Source: Chlorogloea sp. CCALA 695 (lineage in GTDB: Bacteria > Cyanobacteriota > Cyanobacteriia > Cyanobacteriales > Chroococcidiopsidaceae). Taken from it: 64,000 bases of DNA. A model generated the notes under the pieces. That model was not told the origin of the DNA. It worked only from the letters and a program-made list of their open reading frames with translations, and made no database searches. A program made the position numbers and the translations under genes. Location of the stretch: assembly GCF_003003885.1 (NCBI RefSeq), contig NZ_PVWN01000008.1, forward strand, positions 62,001 through 126,000, in the 5' to 3' direction. Positions 4,766 to 62,900 of the stretch are shown here, piece by piece. Each line of letters starts with the position of its first letter. Within the stretch, counting starts at the first letter, position 1.

Positions 4766-4894
4766 TCCTAATTCCTAAAAACACTCTGCATTAAAGTAAA
4801 AAATTGCCTAATGCAGATTTAACTCAGGTTAACAGTTGCTAAATTAACAAGTAAGTAAGCATTAGTTAATTTTGGGTAAAGAAAGTTCTACAGG

Positions 4895-5770
4895 CTAACG
4901 GGGTCGAAACTCTACAACATCGCGTTTAATTGTGATATCGTAATTGCTAAAAAAATCTTGCCCTAACAATCCCAAGTCTAAGTTTGCCGTCGGAGCGATC
5001 GCCACAGGGACATTATTAACTACCGCACCACCCACTTCTATAGAATTAACGTTGCCAATAGAAAATTCTACATTGCGATCGCTAGCAGTATTTGCTGTAG
5101 CTTTACCTATCGGGACAACTCCCAAAACCGCAGCCATTTGTTGAGTAATTACTGTACCACTAGCCCCCGTATCGACAATCATTTCAAATTGCGTACTGTC
5201 ATTGAAAGTAACATCAACTACAGGAGTTCCCCCATGACGGGTTTTGATCGCTGCTTGAAACACTCCCGAACTTGTGGGAGTAAGTATTGGTAGCGGTTGT
5301 ACGGGGGTAACAATAGATCCGGTGGGCAGAATTGCGCGCAAGGGAGCCGGACGCGGTGGAATCGGGCGAATTACTTGTTGCTGGGCGTACTTAAGATTTT
5401 GTTGGTACTGGATAATTTTTTTTTGGGCGATCAGTTTGTAAGGACTGTGGGTTGGTACAGTTTTCATTAAGGCGATCGCTTCGCTCCATTGTGCTGCTAT
5501 TAAGCCCCAATCTTCTGCACCTTGAGCAGATTGAGTAATAGTTAAAGCCCCATAAGCCTTATCTAAAGCACTTTCAAAGCGATCATGTTCAACTACTTGT
5601 GGCGGCGGCAATTTTGCTGTTTGTGGGATTGCGAAAGGTTCAATTGCTACTTGAGGATTTTGCTTTTTAGGCAATTTAGCTGCACTAAAGCTATTACAAG
5701 CAGTGCCGATTAATCCTAGTATTCCAGTTAGCAAAATTAATTCTAAACGTAGAGATAGAAACCGTTTCAT
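4895..5770 (-). CDS. Retropepsin-like aspartic protease, exported
   Basis: The C-terminal 120 residues form a retropepsin-like domain (clan AA, single-lobed): FEMIVDTGASGTVIT holds the catalytic D-T-G-A triad, and LGLLGQDFFSNYDITI is the second family landmark. Such proteins act as dimers. The 291-residue product starts with a hydrophobic segment (residues 8-25) ending LIGTAC, which could be a weak lipobox (Gly at -3 is unusual) or a plain signal peptide. Between signal and protease lies a helical region (about 60-130) and a Pro-rich linker (about 135-165). Substrate unknown; it is most likely a periplasmic or membrane-anchored protease of the kind common in cyanobacteria. Confidence 0.8.
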   Translation of the reverse strand: MKRFLSLRLELILLTGILGLIGTACNSFSAAKLPKKQNPQVAIEPFAIPQTAKLPPPQVVEHDRFESALDKAYGALTITQSAQGAEDWGLIAAQWSEAIALMKTVPTHSPYKLIAQKKIIQYQQNLKYAQQQVIRPIPPRPAPLRAILPTGSIVTPVQPLPILTPTSSGVFQAAIKTRHGGTPVVDVTFNDSTQFEMIVDTGASGTVITQQMAAVLGVVPIGKATANTASDRNVEFSIGNVNSIEVGGAVVNNVPVAIAPTANLDLGLLGQDFFSNYDITIKRDVVEFRPR

Positions 5771-34334: not shown

Positions 34335-34366
34335 GCGAAGCCCTGCGTGCGCGCTTGCGCTATCGC
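34335..34366. repeat. 32-bp dispersed repeat, copy 1
   Basis: The sequence starting GCGAAGCCCTGCGTGC and ending GCGCTATCGC is identical over 32 bases to 61199-61230, 27 kb away. Here it lies in the gap between the HtrA-type gene and prxQ and does no obvious harm. It is GC-rich compared with its surroundings and resembles the small dispersed repeats known in Nostoc-type genomes. Confidence 0.85.
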
Positions 34367-59961: not shown

Positions 59962-59976
59962 GTTCGTTGCTGAATT

Positions 59977-59990
59977 GGTAATTGGTAATT
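59977..59990. repeat. Tandem heptamer GGTAATT, two copies
   Basis: Two perfect copies (59977-59983, 59984-59990) followed by GGGAATA lie just after the LCP gene stop. Third locus of the same heptamer, and the shortest. Confidence 0.7.
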
Positions 59991-60064
59991 GGGAATAACT
60001 TTAATGAACAATTCCCAATGGGGTAGGAATGAGGAGGAAACAGGATTGCAGAAAGGAAAAGTCA

Positions 60065-60985
60065 TCATACTTTCAGCAACGCCAAATTATCTTCAATCCA
60101 CGCTTCCAAAATCGGATTAACTAATTCTGGTGCTTCGTCTTGGGGACAATGCCCTACGCCTTCAATGGGGATAAACTTTTGAACTTGGGGAAACTTGGCT
60201 AATTCTCGCCCTAATTCTATGGGTTCCCAAGGGTCAGCAGTTCCCCACAGCATAATAGCTGGGCATGGCAGCACCGCTAACAGGTCTTCGGGCAAGGGGC
60301 CATGTCCGTAAGCAGTGAAGGCAACAAATACGGCTAATGCGCCAGGATCGCTGGCTGGAGCCATCATAATATCTACCAATTCGTCGGTTACAGCTTCCTT
60401 TTGAGCGTAAGCTTGTAATAAAATCTTGTGTACTGTCGAAGTTTTGGCAATTTGATTGAAAAAAAACTGACTAATAGGTTTAATTGATAAAAGTTTTTGA
60501 ACTAAAGGCGCTCCAAAACGGCGATACCAAGGTAAAGATTGACGTTTGCGATCGTGCAATAGTCGTAACGAACAATTGAGTAAGGCAACTCCTAAAGTTG
60601 TATCTGGGGTGTATATAGCGGCTTGCATGGCGGCAATACAACCGATGGAGTTGCCAACTAAAAAAACTGGTTCGCCAACAACTTCAGTACAAAAATCTGC
60701 AATTTGTCGTCCCCAAGTTTCAAAGGAGTAGGTTACTTGTTCCCCCGGTTTGAGTTCCCCCGGAATTGGCTTTGCAGATGCGCCAAAACCAATTAAATCG
60801 ATCGCATACACGCGAGCAAATTGAGCTAGTACAGGTATATTGTGCCGCCAATGCCACCAAGAAGCGCCAAAGCCATGAATTAGCACCACCGCCGGGCCAG
60901 TATCTCCTTGAGCTTGGTAACAAATGGGGAAACCTTGCCAAGTCCAGGTTTTAGTTGTGGTATTTGAAAGAACAGAAGTTGTCAT
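60065..60985 (-). CDS. Alpha/beta hydrolase
   Basis: A 306-residue alpha/beta hydrolase. LIHGFGASWWHWRHN (about 35-49) is the oxyanion loop; the nucleophile Ser lies in FLVGNSIGCIAAM; the acid Asp in LWGTADPWEPIE; and the His in EGVGHCPQDEAPELV. The WWHW motif and PHYLIDLIGFGAS-type sequence (AIDLIGFGASAKP) are found in cyanobacterial and plastid hydrolases, sometimes linked to chlorophyll or tocopherol metabolism. No signal peptide. It lies next to the broken gene at 61017-61463 on the same strand. Substrate unknown. Confidence 0.88.
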   Translation of the reverse strand: MTTSVLSNTTTKTWTWQGFPICYQAQGDTGPAVVLIHGFGASWWHWRHNIPVLAQFARVYAIDLIGFGASAKPIPGELKPGEQVTYSFETWGRQIADFCTEVVGEPVFLVGNSIGCIAAMQAAIYTPDTTLGVALLNCSLRLLHDRKRQSLPWYRRFGAPLVQKLLSIKPISQFFFNQIAKTSTVHKILLQAYAQKEAVTDELVDIMMAPASDPGALAVFVAFTAYGHGPLPEDLLAVLPCPAIMLWGTADPWEPIELGRELAKFPQVQKFIPIEGVGHCPQDEAPELVNPILEAWIEDNLALLKV

Positions 60986-61016: not shown

Positions 61017-61463
61017 TTATTCTGGCTCAATCAGAAGAGTATTAGGTGACAAACTGCGAGACACGCGATGTACAAGGTTTGAAGAAACATAGAGTAACGA
61101 AAATCCAATCAGAGGGTGCAGTACCTCTAAGTGAAAAGGAGTTTTGAGATGAATGCTGGCAAATTGTAGTCCAAGCAGCACAGGTAAACTGACAGTGAGC
61201 GAAGCCCTGCGTGCGCGCTTGCGCTATCGCACTTTATTTGAAAAAGGGGCGATAAACGCCCATCCCAGTAATATTAATGACAGCCCGCTATACCCTTGCA
61301 CTAGCCAAACATGAACGCTCCACCACGCAGGATTGTTGAAGTAGGCAACGCCAACCGTTAATAACTGAGCAATCAAGCAGAGGTTAAAAACGATTGCAGT
61401 TGCATAAAAACCAATTTGTACCCAAGGGGCAGGAGTGCGAACTATTCCCAAATTTGTAGTCAT
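61017..61463 (-). pseudogene. Four-helix membrane protein gene (DUF6220-like) broken by a repeat
   Basis: From ATG 61463 the frame gives 79 residues with two hydrophobic segments (about 15-38, 57-72) and ends at TAG 61226-61224. Ignoring that stop, the same frame continues without any other stop to TAA at 61019-61017, adding 69 codons with two more hydrophobic segments (VSLPVLLGLQFASIHL and LEVLHPLIGFSLLYVSS). Together they look like a 148-residue four-helix membrane protein resembling DUF6220. The TAG lies inside the 32-bp repeat at 61199-61230, whose insertion broke the gene. Deleting 30 or 33 bases here would restore an open frame. The family call is by layout only. Confidence 0.65.
61199..61230. 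repeat. 32-bp dispersed repeat, copy 2, inside a gene
   Basis: Identical over 32 bases to 34335-34366. Read on the minus strand it supplies the codons CGA TAG and then further basic codons, so it ends the upstream protein prematurely. It is GC-rich against its surroundings. This copy, unlike copy 1, lies within a coding frame and shows the repeat is an insertion. Confidence 0.85.
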
Positions 61464-61471
61464 GTCAAAGT

Positions 61472-62137
61472 TTATTTTACTTCTAAACCCACTGTTCCCA
61501 TAACATAGGCTCTCACCTTACCCACTAAATCAGCCCCCGCTTTTTCCGGTGAACCCACGTCGAAGGGAGGGGCGGGATTATACTCCAACATTAGTTGAGT
61601 CATTTTAGCGACTTCCTCACCGCAAAGTATTGCCGCAATTGTTAAACCGAAATCAATTCCGGCGGTTACACCCCCGCCAGTAATGCGATTGCGGTCAATT
61701 ACAACTCGTTCTGTTCCCACTTCAACTCCCAATTTAGTTAGTTGTTCGCGCATCATCCAGTGAGTAGCCGCTCGGTAGCCCTGGAGCAGTCCTGCTTTTG
61801 CCAGAAACTCAGAGCCGCCGCATACAGAGGTAACAAATTTTGCAGTGCTACCTTGCTTGTGGAGAAATTCAAGCACTTGGGAATCGTTTACTACTGCCAT
61901 TTGTTCTAAGCCGCCACCAATACAGATAACATCTAAAGTGGGGCAATTTTCAAAAGTAGTATCGGGCAAAATTATCATCCCATCATCAGTTTGGATCGGG
62001 TCTAGGGTTTTCCAAAGCCGATGAATCTGAACACCGGGAAGCGCACTAAAAACCTGTTGGGGGCCGACAATATCAAGAGCCGTCATGCCGGGATAAATTA
62101 CTAAACCAATAATTATGTGTTTTTGTGAGTCAGTCAT
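61472..62137 (-). CDS. DJ-1/PfpI-family protein (isonitrile-hydratase-like)
   Basis: A 221-residue class-I glutamine-amidotransferase-like protein. YPGMTALDIVGPQQVFSAL (about 15-33) is the N-terminal landmark; ICIGGGLEQMA and TSVCGGSEFLAKAGLLQG place the nucleophile Cys at 106; RAATHWMMREQL and ITGGGVTAGIDFGL follow. This pattern is that of isonitrile hydratase and the N-terminal domain of GATase-AraC regulators. The reaction here is unproven. The start is ATG 62137. It is divergent from a GAF-LuxR gene with an 88-base gap and is followed 8 bases later by the broken membrane-protein gene, so the three form one region. Confidence 0.88.
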   Translation of the reverse strand: MTDSQKHIIIGLVIYPGMTALDIVGPQQVFSALPGVQIHRLWKTLDPIQTDDGMIILPDTTFENCPTLDVICIGGGLEQMAVVNDSQVLEFLHKQGSTAKFVTSVCGGSEFLAKAGLLQGYRAATHWMMREQLTKLGVEVGTERVVIDRNRITGGGVTAGIDFGLTIAAILCGEEVAKMTQLMLEYNPAPPFDVGSPEKAGADLVGKVRAYVMGTVGLEVK

Positions 62138-62225: not shown

Positions 62226-62900
62226 ATGACCATTCTGCAACCATTATTTCAGACGATCGCACTTTGCAAAGACGAACAACAATTGCGATCGCACGTTGTA
62301 GAAACAGGAGGCGACTATTTCAAAGCAAAACGCTGTGGTGTATTCTTCTTCGACCGCATTAATATCCCGAAAGTAATGCGATTGGCGCTATCGGTTGAAT
62401 ACAATCCTGTAGCGCGTTACCTCGTAGAGCGTCATGCTCCCGTACATGATGGTTTATTAACATCCCCCAAAACCTGGCGGCTAATTTGTCCCCGCGCCGA
62501 TCATTGGCACGTTATGGCTGGCCCAATTGTTAGTAGCGGTCAATTGGTGGGAACTGTAGGCTTTACCCGCGAACAAGTTATGCCTGCTTTTGATGACCAA
62601 AATCTAGCCGATTTGAGTGCGTTGTGCTTACATCTATCTACTTGGACGGCAACAATGCGATCGCAACCCGTGCAAAAACTAGAAAGCGAAGTCTTGACCC
62701 CTCGTGAAGTGCAAATTGCTCAATTGGTTGCTCAAGGACGCACAAACTCTGAAATTGGGGTAGAGCTTTGGATTACTGAAAACTCTGTCAAGCAAGCACT
62801 CAAAAGGATGTTTCGCAAGCTTGAAGTTTCATCCCGCGCCGAGATGACTGCCCAATTTGTAGTTGCAACAATGCGATCGCCTAATAGTATAGAGGTCTAA
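62226..62900 (+). CDS. LuxR-family regulator with N-terminal GAF-like domain
   Basis: A 224-residue regulator. The N-terminal 150 residues are GAF-like (YFKAKRCGVFFFDR, then HWHVMAGPIVSSGQLVGTVGF); the C-terminal HTH is LTPREVQIAQLVAQGRTNSE (about 158-177) then IGVELWITENSVKQALKRMF. The intact LTxRE and WITENSVKQ motifs show a working LuxR helix-turn-helix. It is divergent from the DJ-1/PfpI operon and probably controls it and itself; the ligand is unknown. The start is ATG 62226. Confidence 0.9.
   Translation: MTILQPLFQTIALCKDEQQLRSHVVETGGDYFKAKRCGVFFFDRINIPKVMRLALSVEYNPVARYLVERHAPVHDGLLTSPKTWRLICPRADHWHVMAGPIVSSGQLVGTVGFTREQVMPAFDDQNLADLSALCLHLSTWTATMRSQPVQKLESEVLTPREVQIAQLVAQGRTNSEIGVELWITENSVKQALKRMFRKLEVSSRAEMTAQFVVATMRSPNSIEV

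Follow-up and report, generated by a model that had tools for sequence, protein, structure and literature searches.

The interrupted gene and its relatives

The window analysed here, a 64,000-nucleotide stretch of the genome of Chlorogloea sp. CCALA 695, contains a membrane-protein gene (61017..61463, minus strand) with a stop codon in its interior, which raises the questions of how the stop came to be there and whether the gene is dead. From the ATG at 61463, the frame runs for 79 codons to a TAG at 61226-61224 and, as the sequence-only reading had described, then continues in the same frame to a TAA at 61019-61017. In a profile scan, the 79-residue part matches PF19728 (Pfam DUF6220) with 50.2 bits, above the curated cut-off of 29.8, and the score is 52.5 bits with the downstream part added.

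Unbroken orthologues are present within the same genus, for which the window genome (G000) was considered together with five sister genomes (G001 to G005). The G002 locus (L002) encodes 140 residues and the G004 locus (L003) is also unbroken. Named genomes were scanned as well and provided 24 DUF6220 loci, one of which, L034 (Chroococcus sp. CMT-3BRIN-NPC107), belongs to G004, since identical element places were obtained for the two. As the sequence-only reading required, the frame of relatives without the insert is not divided; G002 and 23 of the 24 named loci have a single open frame of 136 to 179 codons, stop to stop, with no stop at residue 79. The frame of the 24th, L057 (Phormidesmis priestleyi), ends near residue 50, before the site of the window's insert. 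The downstream part of the window frame is homologous to the C-terminus of the same family.

Within the genus, three of the six genomes have a DUF6220 match and none was found in G001, G003 and G005, which are 93%, 74% and 65% complete, respectively. The gene may be dispensable, because G001 is without a match at 93% completeness. The arginine of the sequence WLVRGY is kept in all 24 loci that retain this stretch (23 named loci and L002) whereas the window gene has glutamine (WLVQGY), a change that fits relaxed constraint on this gene.

A net insertion of 24 bp into a HIP1 octamer

The TAG lies in a 32-bp unit (61199..61230, minus strand), delimited by pattern search and sister alignment, that is identical to 34335-34366, as had been seen at the outset. 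The unit had been interpreted as a 32-bp insertion; there is an insertion, but its size is smaller, as eight of the 32 bases are the two halves, GCGA and TCGC, of the HIP1 octamer GCGATCGC and the net gain is 24 bp. In the alignment, GCGATAGCGCAAGCGCGCACGCAGGGCTTCGC in the window is opposite GCGATCGC, the HIP1 octamer, at the same spot in both G002 (L002) and G004 (L003), so that the arrangement in the window is GCGA-[24 bp]-TCGC with no target duplication. Alignment to the empty HIP1 of these two sisters places the insertion (minus strand) at 61203..61226 or, equally, at 61202-61225, a one-base ambiguity. With the second placement, the plus strand reads GCG-[AAGCCCTGCGTGCGCGCTTGCGCT]-ATCGC and the insertion is between nucleotides 3 and 4 of HIP1.

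The frame continues past the insert because 24 is a multiple of three; it would have been lost with an insertion of 32 bp. The stop (61224..61226, minus strand), located by reading the frame, consists of the first three bases of the insert after the HIP1 codon CGA. This CGA TAG junction results from the phase of HIP1 at this position, nnG CGA TCG C, together with the orientation in which the element came to lie. The element's other five frames are all free of stops. The second copy of the 32-bp unit (34335..34366, minus strand; L023) is apparently intergenic, the longest frame across it being 61-69 codons. It is upstream of a frame that by eye resembles a peroxiredoxin, and HIP1 is empty at this site in L095 and L121.

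The interruption is, in our assessment, probably a 24-nt SDR5-type element that inserted precisely into HIP1 after the split from two same-genus species and truncated the gene. That the insertion into a DUF6220-like gene is lineage-specific, as the sequence-only reading had proposed, is borne out by the empty HIP1 in the sisters and the unbroken gene in relatives. An element of this kind, of which the genome has ~45 copies, would have entered GCGATCGC within the DUF6220-like gene on the window lineage, an event that the alignment places later than the split from the two sisters. Translation would then stop at the CGA TAG junction, after residue 79 of ~140, and the product would be missing its C-terminal part.

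Consequences for the gene and its neighbours

Nonsynonymous and synonymous substitutions were counted on three branches; the numbers are small and three ambiguous sites were set aside. On the window branch, the ratio is 7:3 before the insertion and 5:9 behind it, with corresponding values of 3:4 and 6:9 on the G002 branch and 10:15 and 4:8 on the G004 branch. As the part of the window gene behind the stop is without decay, the break is either recent or some product or function persists. The sequence-only reading had taken the gene to be inactivated or else read through; there is no doubt about the stop, yet beyond it the frame is preserved and the pattern of substitution is orthologue-like. 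With the stop read directly from the DNA, loss of function would be the expected consequence, and the product is likely to be a truncated, non-functional DUF6220-like protein.

A gene that is altered and not dead, with protein still produced despite the stop because the TAG is read through or because re-initiation downstream gives two pieces, is the less likely reading. The frame is free of any further stop or frameshift up to the TAA at 61017-61019 and the pattern of substitution behind the stop resembles that of intact orthologues, but the insertion is missing in both sisters and so may be young, in which case a lack of decay is expected regardless. In-frame stops have been argued for in maintained prokaryotic genes (PMC7918605); here, however, nonsynonymous changes exceed synonymous changes in the upstream part on the window branch and an otherwise constant arginine has been lost. 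Truncation by the element remains the preferred reading.

The interrupted gene is directly downstream of a DJ-1/PfpI gene (61472..62137, minus strand; PF01965, 85.9 bits), beyond which is a divergent gene for a LuxR-type regulator (62226..62900, plus strand; PF00196, 53.3 bits, with a GAF match under its cut-off). An alpha/beta hydrolase gene (60065..60985, minus strand; PF12697, 89.1 bits) follows directly downstream, on the same strand as the DUF6220 gene, and the stop may possibly exert polarity on it. Head-to-tail heptamers of the TTGGTAA kind are present at ~59975-59995 and elsewhere in the window, and their 12-mers are the window's commonest. The DJ-1/PfpI context had been taken as a pointer to a pathway, an idea that is not sustained by the named loci, as only 8 of the 24 have DJ-1 close to the DUF6220 gene versus 21 of 24 for a divergent LuxR-type gene (the sequence of one locus, L048, stops short of the regulator side). 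The DUF6220 gene is thus accompanied more constantly by the LuxR-type regulator than by DJ-1, and the recurrent proximity of gene and regulator suggests that they are probably a regulator-target pair.

A dispersed family of HIP1-embedded elements

A search of the genome for further copies had been proposed, and in its 5.2 Mb the 32-mer is present exactly at 21 places and with up to three mismatches at 40, as opposed to 0 places for a reversed control pattern, which argues against chance. The 22-nt core, searched without flanks, is found with up to three mismatches at 43 places, and each of the 26 exact cores has a HIP1 half on either side, the 32-mer showing no more than one mismatch. By a pattern with variable positions left open and two mismatches allowed, there are 45 element places in the window genome and 1, 23, 7, 7 and 23 in G001 to G005, respectively. 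We read 103 copies, namely 102 of these 106 places with their flanks plus L077, which came from the 22-nt core search; the four places not read are in G003 (two) and G005 (two), some less than 300 bases from the end of a stretch, and L078, also from the core search, is not an element and was excluded. Outside the genus the family is patchy; of 120 genomes searched in the order, six have members (the window genome and G002 included), as do 2 of the 24 named genomes, one of them of the same genus. A plasmid search returned no match to the 32-mer. The 24-mer constitutes a dispersed, mobile family.

In a site-by-site comparison of the window genome with three sisters, G002, G004 and G005, orthologous sites differ in being filled or empty, and the element appears to have been mobile recently. 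Some of the sites filled in the window genome are also filled in a sister. For 14 of the 46 own loci there is a cleanly alignable empty sister site, defined as 8 nt between aligned flanks with no more than nine unaligned flank bases. Nine of the 14 have an exact GCGATCGC in one sister or more, although at L010, L015 and L019 another sister or a paralogue reads otherwise; the remaining five read AAAATCGC, GCAATCGC, GCGCTCGC (also GACTTCGC), GCGATCGT and AGCCTAAA. The element is located within HIP1; that it is so exclusively falls short of proof, as these five clean sites are not exact HIP1. Sister sites with no more than nine unaligned flank bases are 8, 31, 32 or 35 nt in length, and no other length was observed, consistent with one octamer and no duplicated target. 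The target-site duplication expected of an IS or a MITE is thus absent, with only a single octamer at the sister sites.

In some cases, the same site has a different type of insert in a sister. A 27-nt type, with a stem that by eye is longer and perfect, is present at L009/L103 and at L020/L085 and L118, and a 23-nt type at L073/L113 and L076/L097; one HIP1 can, therefore, hold different types across species, and such mixed types can arise by repeated insertion or by replacement. One diverged sister insert, L120, is longer. The perfect CCCG/CGGG stem of the 27-nt variant is apparent by eye in L103, L140, L085 and L118, with a diverged form in L106. At the G002 place that matches L025 (L139), there is a longer, MITE-like insert with the inverted repeat GTAGGGGCGCAATGCATTGCGCCCCTAC between HIP1 octamers. 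A different dispersed repeat is positioned beside an element copy at the start of the L070 part (query 4865-4923), and is present at 11 places in G004 and two in G002 with 87-97% identity.

Relationship to SDR5 and other short repeats

Elhai and colleagues (2008, Genome Res 18:1484) reportedly described the SDRs of Nostoc as 21-27 nt in length with a shared secondary structure, and proposed an RNA route. The net 24 nt of the element is within this reported range, with sister variants of 23 and 27 nt. According to PMC4390886, SDR5 is inserted between nucleotides 3 and 4 of HIP1, and the insertion point in the window agrees with this. Because the element sits in HIP1 at the insertion point reported for SDR5, we class it, by target, insertion point and length, as SDR5-type, within which its sequence would define a new family. 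As with SDR5 of Nostoc, it is a very short repeat dispersed in HIP1, with the same insertion point and signs of recent movement. It differs from SDR5 in having a host outside Nostoc, in that a hairpin is unsupported, in the many copies that stay open within long frames, and in a sequence unlike that of the HIP1-embedded 24-mers of Nostoc relatives, which are presumed to be SDR5.

These other 24-mers have a hairpin, NCTCC-NNN-GGAGN. Of 13 named genomes searched, many of them Nostoc-like, 12 have them, at 3-12 places each; the window genome has none within two mismatches. We presume that they are SDR5 itself. They resemble the window family in their 24 nt, their HIP1 insertion point and their multiple copies, whereas there is no evident common sequence beyond the HIP1 flanks, and the exchange of A-T, T-A and G-C at the first pair of the hairpin, visible by eye in the Nostoc relatives, is absent from the window family. 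A de novo repeat search of Nostoc plasmid DNA (200 kb), together with 13 smaller loci, did not itself yield the hairpin-type 24-mer, which emerged only on inspection. A literature search found no report of the SDR5 sequence or of such inserts within genes.

The predicted folds of the window family are no stronger than those of shuffled sequences, with z values of -0.55, -0.11 and 0.30 in the three 32-mers that were folded; the 27-nt variant gave -0.51. For two candidate hairpins, the covariation score was not above that of shuffles (66 and 144 of 500 equally high). Hairpin 1 did have more paired cells than all 500 shuffles, in pair counts from which four of the 47 distinct 32-mers were left out by the analyst's choice.

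Movement of the element

Twenty-four nucleotides are added precisely to HIP1, free of duplication, at many sites that differ between sisters; where a copy is in a long frame, it may point either way. This anatomy would fit a copy-and-paste route that uses HIP1 as its target without duplicating it. Elhai and colleagues are said to have placed such repeats among the smallest mobile elements reported. Directed cutting at HIP1 is offered, in PMC4390886, as a partial explanation only. The number of reverse transcriptase (RVT_1) matches, in counts that include some partial matches and a few below cut-off, is 19, 1, 4, 7, 0 and 4 in G000 to G005, versus 45, 1, 23, 7, 7 and 23 element places. Such matches are most numerous where copies are most numerous; of the three genomes poorest in copies, two have few of them (G001 and G004, but not G003). 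This pattern fits an RNA route and is a lead, not evidence, as it comes from six genomes of unequal completeness, three of them incomplete.

An element that is REP/REPIN-like rather than SDR5-type, and moved by a Y1 (HUH) transposase, seems quite improbable. The element is short, dispersed and partly self-complementary, but its pairing is without covariation support, and Y1_Tnp genes without stops, which are present in the same-genus G001 and G002, do not coincide with its abundance. G001 has two Y1_Tnp genes and one element place, G005 (65% complete) has no Y1_Tnp match and 23 places, and the window genome, with 45 places, has one partial Y1_Tnp match with a stop. A Y1 transposase was rejected as the present mover, having no relation to copy number across the six genomes, three of which are less than 90% complete. 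The REPIN paper (PMC3116915) names SDRs among the repeats whose origin its approach may explain, and describes REPs as mostly extragenic and having a cognate Y1 transposase. The element shares with REP/REPIN and RAYT (TnpA-REP) systems the property of being a short dispersed repeat without a gene of its own; it differs from them as its copies are also in genes, are HIP1-targeted and do not track Y1_Tnp.

Copies within genes

With the insert disregarded, 22 of the 46 own copies are within frames of at least 100 codons, although a few of these frames, which were found mechanically from stop to stop, may not be genes. All but one of the 22 stay open as 8-codon inserts, the exception being the window copy. 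The same kind of element adds eight stop-free codons to the other long frames of this genome that have a copy. With a length divisible by three and only one closed frame in six, insertions in genes would mostly add eight residues. Copies are present in a PAS_3 domain of a histidine kinase (L011), in DUF1499 (L066) and XisI (L031), in a gene (L072) that encodes a Mu-type transposase domain, and in an intein (PF14890, HNH_3) that is itself within an RtcB gene (L071:1-1839, minus strand). No family match was obtained at E 1e-5 for six of 20 frames scanned. Two pairs of similar genes, L010 with L016 and L033 with L074, have an element near the same place in both members, either by duplication together with the element or by repeated insertion.

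The Rickettsia palindromic elements are small repeats, ~100-150 bp in length, that insert in frame into genes and are translated. The element resembles them in its in-frame insertion into protein-coding genes, and differs from them in size, in the HIP1 target, which they are not known to use, and in being in unrelated bacteria.

After joining orthologues and duplicates, the 103 copies from six genomes formed 92 flank clusters. Of the 45 clusters whose frame reaches 150 codons, a limit chosen by the analyst, 33 match the window copy in orientation and 12 do not (p 0.0025); for the other 47 the corresponding numbers are 20 and 27. This bias could arise if copying is linked to a strand or a transcript, or if the added peptide is under selection. 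We propose only tentatively, and with considerable doubt, that a genus-wide stock of 24-nt HIP1-seeking elements makes protein variation with a preference for one orientation in long frames.

Avoidance of the stop phase, considered because one of the 22 own long-frame copies is in this phase versus one in six frames, was rejected; HIP1 itself is seldom in stop phase (8 of 71 in the window's mechanically called genes). Two of the 45 clusters are in stop phase, with 2.5 expected from the HIP1 phases in window genes, and this is chance level because HIP1 is rarely in that phase. In the second of these clusters, L180, there is no possible start codon before the stop, and it precedes a frame that by eye is tyrosine-recombinase-like. 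Four further stop-phase copies are in frames of fewer than 100 codons; of these, L067 was inspected. Apart from the window copy, none of the 103 was found to place a stop behind a possible start in a frame of 100 codons or more, approximately as expected by chance.

Copies within conserved domains, such as those in PAS_3 (L011), DUF1499 (L066) and XisI (L031), would suit excision of the element from RNA, by which the stop and the 8-residue insertions would be absent from the protein. This is nevertheless very improbable, as removal from RNA would not need the frame to be kept, yet the coding copies examined are 24 nt and a sister variant is 27 nt, an argument that would be weakened by the 23-nt variants (L113, L097) if these are in genes. 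Self-splicing machinery is, moreover, not known to fit within an element as small as 24 nt. Ancestry of the 24 bp, with later loss from the sisters, is a formal possibility with nothing further in its favour, and one of almost negligible probability, with exact HIP1 in both sisters and the insert in 0 of the 23 unbroken named loci.

Significance

A single broken gene is ordinary; a family of 24-nt inserts that are polymorphic and within genes is more interesting. Repeats of this kind are already known, and the sequence family described here is new. A broken gene is a cost of the element, and eight added codons the usual outcome in a long frame. For annotators, this means that in-frame 24-bp inserts in HIP1 can be mobile DNA. 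The same-genus genomes with filled and empty sites (one in four contigs) are a ready set for mobility tests, and such a set bears on how 24 nt reach HIP1 and on the need for HIP1 methylation or a host enzyme.
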